Positions 34,362-61,253 of a stretch of 64,000 bases of DNA are shown one piece after another. Source of the stretch: an uncultured Arthrobacter sp. GTDB taxonomy: Bacteria; Actinomycetota; Actinomycetes; Actinomycetales; Micrococcaceae. The translations under genes were made by a program, and so were the position numbers. The notes under the pieces are model-generated. The model searched no databases, was not told the origin of the DNA, and saw only the letters and a list, made by a program, of their open reading frames with translations. Numbering within the stretch: the stretch's first letter is position 1; every line of letters starts with the position of its first letter. The DNA lies in the NCBI RefSeq assembly GCF_947493765.1, contig NZ_CANLSZ010000002.1:310001-374000 (forward strand), in the 5' to 3' direction.

Positions 34362-35168
34362 ATGACCTCCGAACCAGCCGCGCGTGTTGCACTCATCATC
34401 GAAGACGACGCCGATGTGCGCCAGCTCCTCGTCATGACCCTGGGCATGAACGGTTTCACCACGATCGAGGCCGGGAGCGGGCGGGAGGGCGTTGCCCTCG
34501 TCCGTGAACGCCGCCCGGATCTCGTGACCCTCGACCTGAACCTGCCGGACATCGACGGCGTGGAGGTGTGCCGCCAGATCCGTCCGCTGACCGATGCGTA
34601 CATCATCATGATCACGGCACGCCAGGACGAGATCGACCGCCTGATCGGCCTCGAGATCGGCGCCGACGACTTCGTGGTGAAGCCCTTCAGCCCGCGCGAG
34701 GTGGGCGCCCGCGTGAACGCGATGTTCCGGCGACCGAGGAATGCGGGCAGTGCCGAGCCGCAGCGGGCCGGATCGGACACCGCACCGGCCGGGTCGGATG
34801 CCGCACCGGCCGGGAGCCCGGAGGTCGGGGCGACCCCGGCGTCGGAGTCCGTCGAGGGACTGCTGGTCCACGGGCCGATCGAGATCGACACGGAGGGCCG
34901 GATCGCCATGCTCGACGGGGCCGAGCTTCCGCTGACGCGCATCGAGTTCGATCTGCTGGCCACGCTCGTCTCTGGCCCGCGGAGGGTCTGGCAGCGCGAG
35001 ACGCTGCTGGCGAGGATCTGGGGCGACGGATGGGTGAACGACCAGCACCTGGTGGAGGTCCACATCCGCAACCTGCGCAAGAAGCTGAACGAGGACACCA
35101 AGGCGCCCCGGTTCATCCGCACGGTGCGGGGCGTCGGTTACCGGATGATCCCGCCGAGCGCCGCCTGA
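34362..35168 (+). CDS. Orphan OmpR-family response regulator
   Basis: 268 residues. Receiver domain 8-122 with acidic pocket Glu14-Asp15-Asp16, phospho-acceptor Asp58 (VTLDLNLPDIDG), Thr85 and Lys107 (VVKPFSPREV). A linker of about 40 residues carries AGSDTAP/AGSDAAP/AGSPEVG repeats. The winged-helix effector follows (LTRIEFDLLATLVSGPRRVWQRETLL, VHIRNLRKKL, FIRTVRGVGYRM). No histidine kinase lies beside it. Instead its last 31 bases overlap, tail to tail, the gene for a signal peptidase with an HPt-like domain. Confidence 0.95.
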   Translation: MTSEPAARVALIIEDDADVRQLLVMTLGMNGFTTIEAGSGREGVALVRERRPDLVTLDLNLPDIDGVEVCRQIRPLTDAYIIMITARQDEIDRLIGLEIGADDFVVKPFSPREVGARVNAMFRRPRNAGSAEPQRAGSDTAPAGSDAAPAGSPEVGATPASESVEGLLVHGPIEIDTEGRIAMLDGAELPLTRIEFDLLATLVSGPRRVWQRETLLARIWGDGWVNDQHLVEVHIRNLRKKLNEDTKAPRFIRTVRGVGYRMIPPSAA

Positions 35169-36160
35169 TACTCGGAGCCGAGGATCCGCAGCCGGTCGAT
35201 CAGGGCCTCGTGCCGGTCCGGCTCGCCGACGAGTTCCAGGGCCGAGGAGGAGGCCTCCTCGAGCCGGCGGGCGCCCACCATCGAGGCGCTGACATTGAGG
35301 CTGAGCAGGGCCACCACGGCGGCGTCGCCGTCCCGTGCGCCGAACGCCGCGTCGATGGCGTCGATCCGCTGCGGGAGCATGTCCACGAACATCCCGGCGA
35401 ACTGCAGTGCTCCGGCCTGGTTCGACAGTTCCGCCCCGAGATCGTCGAGCGTCTGCCGGTCGAGCACGGGGAGCAGCGAGATGTCCTCGGCGGTGTGGGC
35501 GCCCGGGGCGGGGGTGCCGGTCGCGCCGGCGGCGTCGTCGGCGTCGTCCTTGGGCCGGGACCAGATCATGAGCAGTAGACCTCCGACGAGGACGGCAGGG
35601 ACCCCGTAGACGAGGAGCTGGCTGACAACGGGCGTACGGAGGGCCCGGATGATGGAGCCGACCTCGGGGATGACCGCTCTGGCCTCATACACGTGGTCCC
35701 CCTCGAGGGTGGCGGTCCAGGGGTCGACGGAGTCGTTGGCGTCACCCTTGGTGCGGACGGCGGTGGTGCCGTCCGTCCCCCTGATGACCTCGACCACCCG
35801 GTGTGTCTCGACCCGGTGGTCCTCCACGGGGATGTGGTAGCTGATGACATCGCCCACCGCGATGCCGCTCACGGGCTGCAGGGTGGTGACGACGACGTCG
35901 CCGGGCATGATCTCCGGGGCCATGCTCCCGGTGAGCATCGTGGCGGTCTGGTAGCCGAGGAAGCGGGGGCCGATGGCGAAGAACAGGACGGCGGCGATCG
36001 CCGTGATCATGAGCAGCGTTCCCAGCAGGCTCGCGAGGCGCTGGCCGAGGGACGGCCGGTCGGTGGCGACGACAGTCTCCGCCGGTGCGATCCGGCGTCC
36101 GGCGGGCCGGAGCGTGGCCCGTGATGCGGGGCTGATGGACGGGAGGTCGATCGTCGTCAC
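35138..36160 (-). CDS. SipW-type signal peptidase I fused to an HPt-like domain
   Basis: 340 residues. Membrane helix at about 45-65, then an ER/archaeal (S26B, SipW) type peptidase: Ser79 in MLTGSMAPEIMPGD, His120 in VETHRVVEV and Asp140 in TKGDANDSVDP match the Ser/His/Asp set of this type. A second helix (LLVYGVPAVLVGGLLLMIW) at about 182-200 is followed by an acidic linker. Residues 228-340 are helical and resemble the HPt-like proteins of Arthrobacter (LDRQTLDDLGAELSN, LLSLNVSASMVGARRLEEA). The usual phospho-acceptor His is missing; the aligned residue is Leu or Ser. Likely substrates are the TasA-like proteins at 59864-61021. Confidence 0.8.
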   Translation of the reverse strand: MTTIDLPSISPASRATLRPAGRRIAPAETVVATDRPSLGQRLASLLGTLLMITAIAAVLFFAIGPRFLGYQTATMLTGSMAPEIMPGDVVVTTLQPVSGIAVGDVISYHIPVEDHRVETHRVVEVIRGTDGTTAVRTKGDANDSVDPWTATLEGDHVYEARAVIPEVGSIIRALRTPVVSQLLVYGVPAVLVGGLLLMIWSRPKDDADDAAGATGTPAPGAHTAEDISLLPVLDRQTLDDLGAELSNQAGALQFAGMFVDMLPQRIDAIDAAFGARDGDAAVVALLSLNVSASMVGARRLEEASSSALELVGEPDRHEALIDRLRILGSEYQAALGGIIR

Positions 36161-36936
36161 GCGTGGCTCCTTCTGGTGGTTCCCCGGATCCGGTCGGTGA
36201 CCGGTCGAGGTTGCCCGCCTGCCCGGTGGACGGACCGGAACGGGTGGGCAACCTCGGGAGTGCTGGACTCCTGGTATCCACTGTGCTGCTCGGGACTAAA
36301 GGCAGCGTGCCGGAAGGGCGAAAGAAAACCGAAGAAAGAGCGAAGAGTGAGTTCGCGGGGGGCTTCGTCCCCAGTGCCCGACGGTCATCGGTGGGATCGA
36401 GCGGTCGGGCCCGTTGGTCCCCCGTCGTTGTTCCCACCGCCCGACGGCGATGGGTGGGAGCGAGCGGTCCGGCCCCTTGGTCGCCGTCGTTGACCAGTGG
36501 GATGGAGCAAGGGCCGACGCCGGAAGAAGGCCCGATGCCTCTTCTCGACGCCGAGTAGGCGCTCAGGGCGGGTCGCGGCGCGGAAGAGTACTGAATCCCC
36601 TGGGCCGTTGCGTTCGTTCCCAGTGGCCGACGGCAGCCAGTGGGAGCGAGCGGTCGGGCCCCTTGGTCGCCGTCGTCGGTCCCAGTGCCCGACGGCGATC
36701 GGTGGGAACGAGCGGTCGATCCCACTCACCGCCGTTGACCAGTGGGAGGGAGCGGTCCGGCACGCCGATTCTGGCGTTCCTTCCCAGTGCCCGACGGCGA
36801 TCACTGGGAGCAAGGACCCTGCCCGCGCTGGCCGTCGCGTTCGTCCCCACTGCACGATGGCGATCACTGGGATCGAGGACTCGGTGCCAGCGACCGTCGA
36901 GAACGAGGGCCCCGCTGCTGCCTGCGGTCGTCCGTT
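36161..36936. repeat. Intergenic region with mosaic repeat array A
   Basis: 776 bases with no supported gene. 36207-36257 is a 16-base stem with two G-U pairs and a 19-base loop, upstream of the SipW-HPt gene. From about 36367 to 36905 lie eight or so copies of a hairpin unit: TCCCA, a 12-18 base centre such as CCGACGGCGATC, TGGGA, then CGAGCGGTC. Copies are spaced about 60 bases apart by GGCCCCTTGGTCGCCGTCGT. Some copies are inverted (TCCCACTCACCGCCGTTGAC). Open frames across the array are produced by the repeats. Confidence 0.88.
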
Positions 36937-40426: not shown

Positions 40427-40966
40427 GGTGCCTCCCGGTCGTGTCGGTCTGTGACTACCGGATCGACGCTACTAGCGCTCGGGGAGCTCCGCCACGATTT
40501 TGTCTCGGGCTCTTCTGCTCGATCCCGCTGCTAGTCCCCGACGACGATCGCTGGGAGCGAGCGGTCCGGCCCCTTGCTCCCCGTCGTCGTTCCCACTGGC
40601 CGACGGAGAGCGGTGGGAACGAGCGGTCGATCCCACTCACCGCCGTTGACCAGTGGGATGGAGCGGTCCGGAACGCCGATTCTGTCGTCATTCCCAGTGG
40701 CCGACGGCGATCGGTGGGATCGAGGACCGTGCCCCTTGGTTCCTGTCGTCGTTCCCAGTGGCCGACGGCGATTGGTGGGATCGAGGACCGTGCCCCTTGG
40801 TCGCCGTCGTCGTCCCCAGTGCCGGACGGCGATCGGTGGGAATGAGTGGTCGATCCCACGGATGGCGGTCGAGCAGTGGGATGGAGAGCGAATCACCGTC
40901 CGACCGGGATGCTCGGCCCAACGCCCCGCACCGGAGGACGTCCGGGGTGGGACCGGGCGTCCGGAA
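40427..40966. repeat. Intergenic region with mosaic repeat array B
   Basis: 540 bases without a supported gene. From about 40528 to 40885 lie five to six copies of the same hairpin unit as in array A, in the same main orientation (TCCCAGTGGCCGACGGCGAT...GGTGGGA). Two inverted half-units are present (TCCCACTCACCGCCGTTGAC near 40630 and a divergent one near 40853). The stretch CGATCCCACTCACCGCCGTTGACCAGTGGGA is shared base for base between arrays A and B in part. The first 100 bases must hold the promoter of the molybdoenzyme operon; none stands out. Confidence 0.88.
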
Positions 40967-43579: not shown

Positions 43580-43630
43580 GTAGTCAGGATCACATCCAGC
43601 GATCCCTCAACTGAATACGCCTTCGATCCG

Positions 43631-43825
43631 CAGCGGGAGAGTTCTGCTGTCGACCACAGACCGGCAGGCGCCGTAGGAGCAACTCCTCCCCAGGAATCTC
43701 TCAGGCCCAGTACCGTCGCGGATAGGCAACTCTGGAAAGCGGTGGCGGACGTGGTCCCCCACCCACCGACGGTGCAAGCAGGATGTCCTGCGAAAACTCT
43801 CAGGTTCCCTACAGAGCGGGGAGGA
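43631..43825 (+). promoter_or_regulatory. Tandem glycine riboswitch upstream of gcvP
   Basis: Two glycine aptamers in series. The first has GCGGGAGAGT, GGCGCCGTAGGAGCAA and GGAATCTCTCAGGC and closes near CAACTCTGGAAAGC; the second has CCGACGGTGCAAGC, AAAACTCTCAGGTTCC and ACAGAGCGGGGAGG. These are the conserved internal blocks of the gcvT class. Glycine binding normally turns on the downstream glycine cleavage genes. No strong terminator hairpin follows, so control may be at translation. The whole element lies 52 bases upstream of the gcvP ATG. Confidence 0.92.
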
Positions 43826-43876: not shown

Positions 43877-46792
<2,916 letters not shown>

Positions 46793-57845: not shown

Positions 57846-59165
57846 ATGAGCACCAGACCCCCGGTGACGGAGGCGGCCGGGCGAAGCGGCGCGGTCTCCT
57901 TCACCGAGCTCAATGCGCGCCGGCTGGGACCCGTGCGGCGGTACTTCCGCACCCGACCCCGCGCCATGGACGCCGTCGTCGTCCTCGCCTTCCTGGTCCT
58001 GACCCTGCCCGACGCCGTGATCATGGCGGCCGGCGAGGGGGCCTGGTGGGCTCTGGCGGGCGTCGTCCTGGCCGGGAGCGCCCTGGTGTTCCGCCGGTCG
58101 AGGCCCCTGGCGGTGCTGGCGTTCGTCGCCGTCCTCGATCTGCCGCTGAGCTTCCTCACCGAGGGCGTGGGGAGCAGTGGTGCGGCCACGGCCTTCGCCC
58201 TGTACTCGGTGGCCGCGGCCCATCCGCTGCGCCGTGCGTTCACCGCCTCGGTTGCCGCCGCGGCACTGTCCGTCGCTGCCGTCCTGCTCCTGCCCTCCAC
58301 CGCGTTCGCCGAGGCACCCTGGGTGGTCTGGCTGGTGGCCGGTTTCGTGGTGATGATCCTCGCTGCGGCCGCCGGGATCGGCATCACCGTGCGGCGCGAC
58401 CGCGAGCACGAGCGGGAGTTGCGCGACTGGGCGGCACGCAACGCGGAGCTGGCATCCGCCGGGGAGCGCACGCGGATCGCCCGGGAGATGCACGACGTCG
58501 TCGCCCACTCACTCACGGTCATGGTGGCCCTCTCGGACGGCGCGGCCGTCGTCATGAAGCGCGATCCCGCACGAGCCGAGGCCGTGCTGGGGGAGCTCTC
58601 CGCCGCCGGGCGGACCGCGCTCGCGGACATGCGCCGCGTGCTCGGTCTGCTCCGGGCGGACGGCGGCGCTCCGGCACCCCTGCCGGCATCGAGTTCCGTG
58701 ACCCAGCTCCTCGACGGCTTCAGGGCGGCAGGTCTACCGCTGCGGGTGACCACCAGCGGCCCGCTCCTGCCCGAGGATCCTGCCTTCCAGCTCACCATGT
58801 ACCGGATCCTGCAGGAGTCGCTCACCAACGTCCTGCGCTACGGCAAGGGCGTTACGCTGGTGGACATCCGGATCACGAGGACCGGACGGACGGTCACGCT
58901 GCGCGTCGCGGACGACGGCGGAAGCCCCATGGAGCCTCTCGCCTCGCTCGGCTCCGGCCAGGGTCTCGAGGGCATGCGCGAGCGCGCAGCGATCTACGCG
59001 GGCTCCGTGGAGTGCGGTCGCAGGCCCTCCGGCGGCTGGGTGGTGGACGTGCAGCTGACGATCCCCGACGGCGAGTCGGGGAACCAACGGGGGAACGAGA
59101 AGGATGACCACGCAGCAGACCATGCGGTCCGGCCCGGATACGCCGATCAGGGTTCTGCTCGCTGA
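57846..59165 (+). CDS. Sensor histidine kinase, NarL/DesK-type
   Basis: 439 residues. Four to five membrane helices in the first 180, without a large outside domain. Dimerisation box REMHDVVAHSLTVMVALSDG with phospho-acceptor His216, and the ATPase N-box MYRILQESLTNVLRYG with G-box GSGQGLEGMRERA. This intramembrane-sensing layout next to ABC exporters often responds to cell-envelope stress or drugs. Its last 62 bases overlap the response regulator gene. Confidence 0.93.
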   Translation: MSTRPPVTEAAGRSGAVSFTELNARRLGPVRRYFRTRPRAMDAVVVLAFLVLTLPDAVIMAAGEGAWWALAGVVLAGSALVFRRSRPLAVLAFVAVLDLPLSFLTEGVGSSGAATAFALYSVAAAHPLRRAFTASVAAAALSVAAVLLLPSTAFAEAPWVVWLVAGFVVMILAAAAGIGITVRRDREHERELRDWAARNAELASAGERTRIAREMHDVVAHSLTVMVALSDGAAVVMKRDPARAEAVLGELSAAGRTALADMRRVLGLLRADGGAPAPLPASSSVTQLLDGFRAAGLPLRVTTSGPLLPEDPAFQLTMYRILQESLTNVLRYGKGVTLVDIRITRTGRTVTLRVADDGGSPMEPLASLGSGQGLEGMRERAAIYAGSVECGRRPSGGWVVDVQLTIPDGESGNQRGNEKDDHAADHAVRPGYADQGSAR

Positions 59166-59811
59166 CGACCAGCCCCTGCTGAGGATGGGCTTCCGACTCA
59201 TCCTCGAGGGTGAGTCGGACCTGGAGATCGCCGGTGAGGCGTGCACCGGTGACGAGGCGGTGAGGCTCTCGGCCCAGCTCCGCCCCGACGTCGTCCTCAT
59301 GGATGTACGGATGCCGCGTGGTGACGGGATCGAGGCCACCCGTCAGATCACGGCGTCGGGCTCGTGCTCGCGCATCATCATCCTGACCACGTTCGATCTG
59401 GACGAGTACGCCTTCGCCGGCCTGCAGGCCGGGGCATCGGCGTTCCTGCTGAAGGACGTGGCGCCGCAGGAACTGGTCCAGGCGGTGCGGGTCGTCGCGA
59501 GCGGTGACGCCGTCGTGGCGCCCCGTGTCACCCAGCGACTGCTCGAGACCTACGTCCGCTCGCTTCCACCGGCCACCGCGACGGTGCGGGATCCGCGGCT
59601 CGCCGAACTGACGCCGCGTGAGAACGAGGTGCTGCAGGCCGTTGCCGGAGGCCTCTCCAACGCCGAACTCGCTGCGACCTTCTTCCTGTCCGAGGCCACC
59701 ATCAAGACGCATGTGCGACGGATCCTCACGAAGCTCGGCCTGCGGGACCGCGTGCAGGCCGTGGTGTTCGCCTACGAGAACGGGATCGTCGTACCGGGTC
59801 CCGGGACCTGA
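59104..59811 (+). CDS. NarL/LuxR-family response regulator
   Basis: 235 residues. Receiver domain with acidic pair DDQ at 21-22, phospho-acceptor Asp67 (DVVLMDVRMP) and the lysine in FLLKDVAP. LuxR-type DNA-binding domain: LTPRENEVLQAVAGGLSNAELAA and SEATIKTHVRRILTKLGLRDR. Pairs with the histidine kinase. The ATG at 59104 has GAGAAGG directly upstream, so the 62-base overlap with the kinase gene appears genuine. Confidence 0.94.
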   Translation: MTTQQTMRSGPDTPIRVLLADDQPLLRMGFRLILEGESDLEIAGEACTGDEAVRLSAQLRPDVVLMDVRMPRGDGIEATRQITASGSCSRIIILTTFDLDEYAFAGLQAGASAFLLKDVAPQELVQAVRVVASGDAVVAPRVTQRLLETYVRSLPPATATVRDPRLAELTPRENEVLQAVAGGLSNAELAATFFLSEATIKTHVRRILTKLGLRDRVQAVVFAYENGIVVPGPGT

Positions 59812-59863: not shown

Positions 59864-60307
59864 TCAGCACTTGATCGGGTAGACCGCCGGATCGCCGGTC
59901 CACGTCCCCACACTCGCCCAGATCCTGAGGGTGTAGGTGCCGTTCAGCATGGACATCCGGGTGATCGTGGTGGCCCGCTTGGTCGGACTGACGGTGTGGG
60001 TGGTCACGACACCCGCCGGGCCCGTCAGGGTCACGGTGTACTCGGTGGCACGAGGGACCACGCCAAAATCGGTGATCGCCACGGTCACGAACATCTTCAG
60101 GAGCGAGCAGTCGATGGTGCCGGTGACGCCGGCGGGTGCGGGGATGTCGTAGGTGCCCACGGACAGAGCCGCCGTGTCCCGGTCGGAGAACGCCGCCTGC
60201 GCGACCGTGGGTGCCCAGGTGAGGACGACGACGGCGAGCAGCAGCTTCGCGAGGAACCGCAGTCGGCGCGGGAGGCGGGTGGTTCCGCCTGCACGGTGTC
60301 GGCTCAT
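59864..60307 (-). CDS. Secreted SipW-dependent-type protein
   Basis: 147 residues, no close family recognised. The N-terminus is basic and then hydrophobic (RFLAKLLLAVVVLTWAPTVAQ), ending in AQAAFSDRDTAALSVGTYDI, the mark of camelysin/TasA-type proteins cut by SipW peptidases. The rest looks like a beta-rich domain (TEYTVTLTGPAGVV) ending in Cys. Same strand as the TasA-like gene, 78 bases downstream of it. Confidence 0.7.
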   Translation of the reverse strand: MSRHRAGGTTRLPRRLRFLAKLLLAVVVLTWAPTVAQAAFSDRDTAALSVGTYDIPAPAGVTGTIDCSLLKMFVTVAITDFGVVPRATEYTVTLTGPAGVVTTHTVSPTKRATTITRMSMLNGTYTLRIWASVGTWTGDPAVYPIKC

Positions 60308-60385: not shown

Positions 60386-61021
60386 CTAGCGGCTGGTGGC
60401 GGCGCGCTGCGTTGCGGTGAACGTGAAGTTCACCGTGCTCGTGAGGCCCTGGAAGGTGTTGTCGGCGGCGACCGGGAGGGTGGACGTGAAGCGCAGGTTG
60501 TCCGCCTTGCCCGGGGCCATGGAGGCGAGGCCGGGGAGTGCGACATCGGTGCCGATGATCGCGCGGCTCGGCAGGATGCTCGTGACGGTCCCGGCGCAGG
60601 TGTAGGTGTAGGCGGGCGCGGTGCCGGTCTCGGTCCAGGGGACGCTGCAGGAGTCGACCGTGAGCTGGAGGCCGTTGACGGCGTCGGTGGAGAGCTTCGA
60701 CGGCGAGCCGACCGCTGCGGTGCTCAGGGTGATACCGCCGAAGGCCTGGCTGCCCGTGTTGGTGATGGCCGCCACGCGCTGGACGCTGTCGCCGGGCACG
60801 ATGTTGACGGCAGCGACGGTGAGGCGGTTGGCCGCCGTTCCTGCAGCACCGAGCTGGATGTCGACCGTGCCGGCGCTGACCGTCTCGCTGGCGGAGGTGG
60901 TGGAGGTGAAGGAGCCGTACGTGCCCAGGCCCGCGACGGACGCGGCGACGCCGAGCAGCGCGACGGAGGCGAGAACCTTGCCGGAGGTGGACTTCATCGA
61001 GATGCGGGACATGCGAGCCAT
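60386..61021 (-). CDS. TasA/camelysin-like secreted protein
   Basis: 211 residues. The signal region KVLASVALLGVAASVAGLGTYGSFTST is the SipW-dependent type, followed by SASETVSAGTVDIQLG as in TasA-family proteins. The mature part is Thr/Ala-rich, probably a beta sandwich. TasA of Bacillus forms biofilm fibres; a fibre role here is inference. An AAAAGG ribosome site precedes the ATG. The only SipW-type peptidase in the window is the HPt-like fusion at 35138. Confidence 0.82.
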   Translation of the reverse strand: MARMSRISMKSTSGKVLASVALLGVAASVAGLGTYGSFTSTTSASETVSAGTVDIQLGAAGTAANRLTVAAVNIVPGDSVQRVAAITNTGSQAFGGITLSTAAVGSPSKLSTDAVNGLQLTVDSCSVPWTETGTAPAYTYTCAGTVTSILPSRAIIGTDVALPGLASMAPGKADNLRFTSTLPVAADNTFQGLTSTVNFTFTATQRAATSR

Positions 61022-61253
61022 GGTGAGACCTTTTCGTGAGGATCGATCGGTGGGGCCCGGTTCCCCCAGCGGGATCCGGTGCTTCTGGTGTCAAATATCG
61101 GCACCGAAGCTCAACCCGGACCCGCCGTACCCGCGAACCATGCGCGAAGGAACACCGAAGAGGAGGTCCAAACCGAAGAACAGGTGAAGACAGGCCGAAG
61201 AAGCGCCTTTGTACGACCGGGTGGTCACGAAGGCCATCTGGTTGAATCGGAGG

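Follow-up and report, generated by a model that had tools for sequence, protein, structure and literature searches.

A histidine-less HPt domain fused to a SipW-type signal peptidase in Arthrobacter, its convergent response regulator and a promoter box common to the fusion and a candidate fibre gene

Why should a membrane signal peptidase end in a domain that resembles a phosphotransfer protein, and why should its gene run into that of a response regulator? The question is raised by a locus within a 64,000-nucleotide stretch of Arthrobacter DNA (the window), taken from a genome of 2.99 Mb in 31 contigs. On the minus strand, ORF calling, profile matches, alignment and a structural model together define a protein of 340 aa with a GTG start (36160..35138), in which a SipW-type signal peptidase is fused to an HPt domain that lacks the acceptor histidine. 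The peptidase is 93% identical to that of A. echini P9, an Arthrobacter record. On the plus strand, the ORF call and Pfam identify an OmpR/PhoB-type response regulator (RR) of 268 aa with a receiver and a winged helix (34362..35168). An earlier note on this DNA had reported that the two genes overlap tail to tail by 31 bases, and both ORFs are indeed present with a common stretch at 35138..35168. The same 31-bp overlap is found in five other loci of the genus with called genes (L129, L130, L131, L132 and L136), but it is not universal, since the two genes are separated by a gap of more than 100 nt in G019 and G031 (L008 and L009). On its other side, the RR of the window adjoins a gene resembling FAD/NAD-binding oxidoreductases, and no histidine kinase was found among its neighbours. 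Upstream of the RR and on the same strand, L131, L132 and L136 have a gene for a GGDEF-EAL protein (by Pfam in L132 and by profile in L131 and L136); such a gene does not adjoin the RR in the window.

The peptidase part has the features of an ER-type signal peptidase I, with Ser, His and Asp placed between two membrane helices. Alignment A2, of 12 fused proteins, shows no change at any of the catalytic residues named in the note, Ser79, His120 and Asp140, and the window protein passes the NCBIfam signal peptidase I model TIGR02228 (55.9 bits against a cut-off of 51.85), in agreement with the proposed SipW type. The helices are predicted at residues 38–76 and 177–200, in the low-confidence part of the full-length model. 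Because the score against the NCBIfam equivalog model for Bacillus SipW, NF046067, lies below its cut-off (55.4 against 190 bits), we do not file the peptidase as an orthologue of that protein. Bacillus subtilis SipW, from the tapA-sipW-tasA operon, is likewise an ER-type signal peptidase for TasA/camelysin-type proteins. Unlike B. subtilis SipW, the window protein has a tail of ~110 residues, predicted to fold as an HPt domain, and an RR gene beside it.

This tail, residues 228–340 (35141..35479, minus strand), had been described as an HPt-like domain without its acceptor histidine, and the description has held up. Both the full-length structure prediction and a VIA comparison give a helical HPt bundle; although the model as a whole is of low confidence (mean pLDDT 60.1, pTM 0.36), residues 251–340 reach 79–91 per 10-residue block, and only the tail was read from it, the peptidase part being poor. 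Leu286 takes the acceptor position. The window protein scores under the Pfam Hpt (PF01627) cut-off of 24.6 bits, with 17.3 bits for the whole protein and 19.6 bits for the tail alone, and relatives from L226, L229 and L231 pass it (29.3, 33.3 and 24.8 bits). Compared with PF01627 proteins such as Pseudomonas aeruginosa HptB (7c1i), the tail differs in the replacement of the acceptor His by Leu and in its fusion to a membrane peptidase. We do not call it a phosphotransfer protein, because its acceptor position is occupied by Leu286 and not His. Phosphotransfer through such tails was rejected, since none of the 15 tails sharing one ORF with the peptidase has His at this position and all 15 have Leu. 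By dN/dS ratios of 0.12–0.38, all below 0.4 in fused and stand-alone tails (NG86, six pairs tested), the tail is under purifying selection.

Absence of the histidine extends well beyond the fused proteins. Among 107 distinct members of the family, the acceptor residue is not His in 104: the column holds Leu in 80, Gly in 7, Val in 6, His in 3, Met, Ile, Ala and Glu in 2 each, and Gln, Thr and Ser in 1 each, and a Gly ten positions further on is kept in all 107. One of the three His-bearing members sits in a hybrid histidine kinase (L221), where His is expected. Another is the second HPt-like protein of the window genome (L237, 6578–6961 on the minus strand of contig C6), which faces another OmpR-type RR; its His counts against our preferred reading, although it has Thr where HPts usually have Lys. 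Searches at unequal thresholds, in which most matches were stand-alone proteins, found the tail in 35 of 38 genus genomes (E ≤ 0.001) and in 87 of 245 sampled family genomes (E 1e-5), and a profile matched 36 of 248 order genomes (E 1e-8). By these matches, the His-less HPt of the window belongs to a Micrococcales family. A known parallel is the Arabidopsis pseudo-HPt AHP6, which also lacks the acceptor His and is described as a negative regulator of phosphorelay (PMC7402358). AHP6 is a soluble plant protein in which His is changed to Asn, however, and the likeness is one of analogy and not of family membership. In the open-licence literature searched, we found no paper on an Hpt domain in an Arthrobacter two-component context and no title describing a peptidase-HPt fusion, the latter not being proof of novelty.

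The partner across the overlap presents a different picture. The RR matches Pfam Response_reg (93.4 bits) and Trans_reg_C (89.9 bits) and combines the receiver Asp, acidic pair, Thr/Ser and Lys with a winged-helix output domain, as in the OmpR/PhoB class. Asp, acidic pair and Lys are retained in 71 of 71 distinct aligned receivers that face HPt genes, with Thr in 57 and Ser in 14. Since the receivers keep their catalytic residues and the HPts lack His, the pair is asymmetric at the level of sequence, one partner having retained its chemistry and the other having lost it. Facing arrangements are also frequent. Where enough sequence past the end of the gene was available, a receiver gene stands tail to tail with 72 of 105 distinct HPt-like genes; in 63 of these pairs the receiver protein has an OmpR-type output domain, and in 9 it is a receiver alone. 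These counts include many orthologues that are not independent, and relatedness inflates them. Among the 40 loci of a less biased set, collected as the more distant HPt matches, 18 face an OmpR-type RR, which counts against our preferred reading. Within the genus, the close RR is faced by 19 of 19 close HPt copies, and both HPt-like genes found in the window genome, which encodes 17 receiver domains, face an RR. It also counts against this reading that 33 of the 105 genes have no convergent receiver gene nearby, the peptidase-HPt fusion of L229 and L230 (described below) among them, and that in G018 the RR and the promoter box discussed below are present where HPt is absent.

The earlier note had proposed a link between the peptidase and the regulator. 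What survives of that proposal is a conserved pairing of RR with HPt; a pairing with the peptidase itself was rejected, since hpt keeps the RR as its neighbour in genomes where the peptidase lies elsewhere or has been lost. In the survey of homologues, where the peptidase is tail-less the RR likewise remains with HPt and not with the peptidase. Together with the predicted helical bundle of the tail, this means that the refuting check set by the note came out in its favour. These findings bear on whether the tail could be a structural or dimerization extension only, and the tail-to-tail order a product of neighbourhood history without function. Such a role would sit easily with the tail-less peptidases of the same clade (G003, G025, G018 and G032), but the pairing of hpt and RR outlasts the peptidase, it recurs with other RRs and other enzymes, and peptidase-HPt fusions occur in two unrelated families, so that we consider this explanation very unlikely.

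How the peptidase and HPt parts came together can be followed in part across relatives. In the window's genus, sipW and hpt form one ORF in 13 genomes, and a stand-alone hpt faces the RR in eight. In G006, G009, G011, G027 and G033, the stand-alone hpt opens with the motif found at the N-terminus of the fused protein, and in G032 the frame ahead of it holds a piece resembling the end of the second membrane helix. We read this as excision of the peptidase part, although events may have run in the reverse order. In a peptidase tree (FastTree, 34 rows, one short row excluded), the fused proteins do not form one clade, those of G026 and G028 branching apart, and hence both a single fusion with later splits and two fusions are compatible with the data. 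A second, independent peptidase-HPt fusion occurs in another family (L229, 306 aa; L230, 305 aa). It adjoins a gene whose product has, by eye, a SipW-type signal sequence, and no receiver gene was found within 4 to 5 kb on either side. An unfused layout is seen at loci L137, L138, L139, L141 and L148 of another genus, g28, where a camelysin/TasA-like gene and sipW are accompanied by a separate hpt facing the RR; hpt starts before sipW ends, the two sharing 4 to 17 nt in L137, L139, L141 and L148 and 14 nt in L138.

A candidate substrate is encoded in the window. The gene at 60386..61012 (minus strand, alternative ATG at 61021) matches the camelysin/TasA family PF12389 in Pfam (39.2 bits against a cut-off of 22.5), and its secreted product is a probable SipW substrate, although it scores under the cut-off of the signal model TIGR04088 (16.7 against 19 bits). 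Across 37 genomes of the genus (G287 left out), a PF12389 gene is found in 17 of 17 with this peptidase and in 3 of 20 without it (Fisher p 9e-8, uncorrected for kinship), and in all three exceptions a different peptidase-like match lies within about 2 kb of the PF12389 gene. No PF12389 gene was found in G006, G009, G011, G027 and G033. Adjoining the camelysin/TasA-like gene in the window is a gene for a small secreted protein (59864–60307, minus strand) with no Pfam or NCBIfam match above cut-off; it may be a second SipW-type substrate, and lookalikes lie near the module in L137 (6458–6874), L147 (14267–14662) and L148 (9530–10021). On the plus strand, at 57864–59811, genes for a HisKA_3 kinase and for a response regulator of LuxR/NarL type end ~50 nt from the small secreted gene.

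The clearest connection between the fusion and the fibre gene lies in their promoters. A pattern search found the direct-repeat box TTCG-N7-TTCG-N7-TTCG at 36319..36344, ahead of the peptidase gene and 158 nt from its start codon, and a second exact copy 24 kb away at 61134..61159, upstream of the camelysin/TasA-like gene, where a third copy with one mismatch lies at 61174..61199 (all on the minus strand). The two exact boxes compare with 0.01 expected, and none of 100 shuffles had two; with up to one mismatch, three compare with 0.27 expected, a number reached in 1 of 100 shuffles. When 16 upstream regions of the genus were aligned, they shared one long block, in outline CTTCG-N6-CTTCGG-N5-TTTCG with its three TTCG cores at 11-bp spacing, and the box lies 134 to 178 nt ahead of the start codon in all 16 promoters, whether hpt is fused or stand-alone. 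In relatives with a close RR, 18 of 24 TasA-like stretches have a box with at most one mismatch (13 exact), 128–184 nt ahead of the matched start. The other six, including both in G032, have none, and no box was found near the TasA-like stretches of G028 or of fetched loci from other genera with a more distant RR; the six and the loci of other genera count against our preferred reading. In G026, whose RR is more distant (70% identity), an exact box stands upstream of TasA-like, SP and fused HPt genes in one row. Of 36 distinct exact box contexts, 35 have a TasA-like, SP or HPt domain no more than 700 nt downstream, and the remaining one, in G018, faces the RR at a place from which hpt is missing; the 264 loci (1.57 Mb) behind this count are redundant and were chosen around these genes, and overlapping boxes were counted separately. 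The box is thus well supported as an element common to sipW-hpt and fibre gene promoters. The earlier note had suggested a tie to fibre processing, and this idea gains from the presence of a camelysin/TasA-like gene within the operon in other genera, the co-occurrence in the genus and the shared promoter box.

Other explanations for the region ahead of sipW-hpt were tried and rejected. No standard sigma-70 promoter was found beside the box in 36100–36420. A known leader RNA was rejected because an Rfam search of the whole window returned only a glycine riboswitch (RF00504, 59.5 bits; 43624–43725, plus strand), which lies upstream of a 971-aa ORF at 43877 that resembles, judging from its start, a glycine decarboxylase gene. 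A close RR paralogue was rejected as the general box binder, since it is found in only some box genomes and the window genome has none at E 1e-75 or better. The spacing itself fits an OmpR-type regulator, because PhoP in Streptomyces uses direct repeats with the same 11-bp period (PMC9019756), although the core of its PHO box is GTTCACC and that of the window box TTCG. We propose the RR of this locus as the factor that binds the candidate box, because an OmpR-type protein fits the period of 11 and, among regulators, it is this RR whose place next to the gene is conserved; another OmpR-type regulator would be the alternative.

What sequence and prediction give directly, namely the peptidase residues, the HPt fold and its lost His, the intact receiver, the HPt-RR pairing, the substrate co-occurrence and the shared box, is consistent with a model in which the module forms the membrane arm of a two-component system controlling a camelysin/TasA-like surface-fibre protein. 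The RR would act on the fibre-gene and sipW-hpt promoters through the triplets of 11-bp direct repeats, and the HPt tail, transferring no phosphate, would serve as a docking site for its receiver domain. Docking would hold the RR (activation being the less likely effect) at the membrane beside the peptidase, so that more peptidase, or idle peptidase, would leave less free RR. Such a feedback would fit fibre-gene expression to processing capacity. We give this reading a probability of roughly 0.55; both the binding of the tail to the receiver and the sign of the feedback are inferred.

A different partner for the tail is suggested by the kinases of the relatives. The RR had been called an orphan, and this is correct for the window; in other genera, however, a histidine kinase often lies beside it: of 45 convergent pairs with sufficient sequence, 25 have a kinase no more than 3 kb past the RR. 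At the g28 loci, Pfam identifies PAS, HisKA and HATPase domains in a kinase encoded past the RR in L137 and L141, and a profile search also places a kinase there in L138 and L139. The tail might then bind the kinase, acting as a decoy either for its helical dimerization domain or, during transfer, for the receiver. RR phosphorylation would thereby be inhibited in the manner of AHP6, which has Asn for His and is described as competing with functional HPts (PMC7402358). The gene order of L231, with hpt flanked by sipW and a kinase gene, can be cited in favour of such a role, but the window RR has no neighbouring kinase and yet the dN/dS of the tail is well below 1; we regard this as quite unlikely. 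The window genome has two homologues of the g28 kinase as candidate kinases: the copy on C8 adjoins another RR, and that on C4 has no adjoining RR. Because the genes flanking the C4 kinase match those flanking the TasA-SP-HPt-RR-kinase locus of G151, it may be a kinase left behind from the module.

The same His-less HPt also occurs with an enzyme of another kind. In other Micrococcales families it forms the C-terminus of a family-2 glycosyltransferase, checked with Pfam in L226 only, and the same layout is seen in L227, L228, L234, L241 and L243. Between the fused gene and the receiver gene that it faces, 20 or 38 nt are shared in L226, L227, L241, L242 and L243, and none in L228 and L234. What appears to be the unfused counterpart is found in L238 (4283–6684) and L146 (7414–9755), where a His-less hpt, here a gene of its own, shares 13 nt with the MshEN-glycosyltransferase gene that precedes it. 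The glycosyltransferase-HPt genes face receivers of a single domain, 122–137 aa long and without a DNA-binding part, and a kinase gene is called in each of the loci L226, L227, L228, L234, L241 and L243. A receiver without an output domain must act through binding, which lends some weight to a reversed flow in which the phosphorylated RR docks on the tail and directly switches the peptidase, or the glycosyltransferase in relatives, besides controlling genes. We hold this to be unlikely for the window: its RR includes a DNA-binding domain, the shared box speaks for control at the level of genes, and the cytoplasmic tail has no evident route for switching a catalytic site on the outer side.

Feedback docking of the RR on the tail is our preferred reading for the window. 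A wider version, which we put forward only tentatively and consider possible rather than probable, is that the His-less HPt is a general Micrococcales docking module. It would join phosphorylatable receivers to matrix-building membrane enzymes, both family-2 glycosyltransferases, with which it is fused, and signal peptidases, with fusions at least in the window's genus and one further family; phosphorylation state would decide docking. If this were true, one signal would set enzyme activity and gene expression together.

Beyond the peptidase start, the window contains two arrays of a ~61-nt repeat with the core CCCAGTGSCCGACGGCGATCGGTGGGA (36359–36895 and 40526–40911), flanking a cassette of three genes that encode a molybdopterin oxidoreductase, a 153-aa protein and an HPP membrane protein. 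Eight of ten whole-genome matches to the repeat (at most 3 mismatches) fall within the two arrays, all in one orientation, and the reversed control gave no matches in the whole genome. L132 has the cassette at this place, but in L129, L130 and L131 it is absent there.

Finally, the locus invites comparison with Bacillus, for which SipW has been reported to be a bifunctional protein that also regulates biofilm genes (PMC4238804, PMC9486643). In the portions of those reports available to us, that second function is given without a mechanism; here, the regulatory part would be a recognizable HPt fold. The defined partner gene and the defined DNA box make the proposed link between fibre export and matrix gene control directly testable. 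HPt domains without histidine are usually regarded as decayed or as plant oddities. Our findings suggest that in actinobacteria the His-less HPt is a maintained and repeatedly fused docking part.
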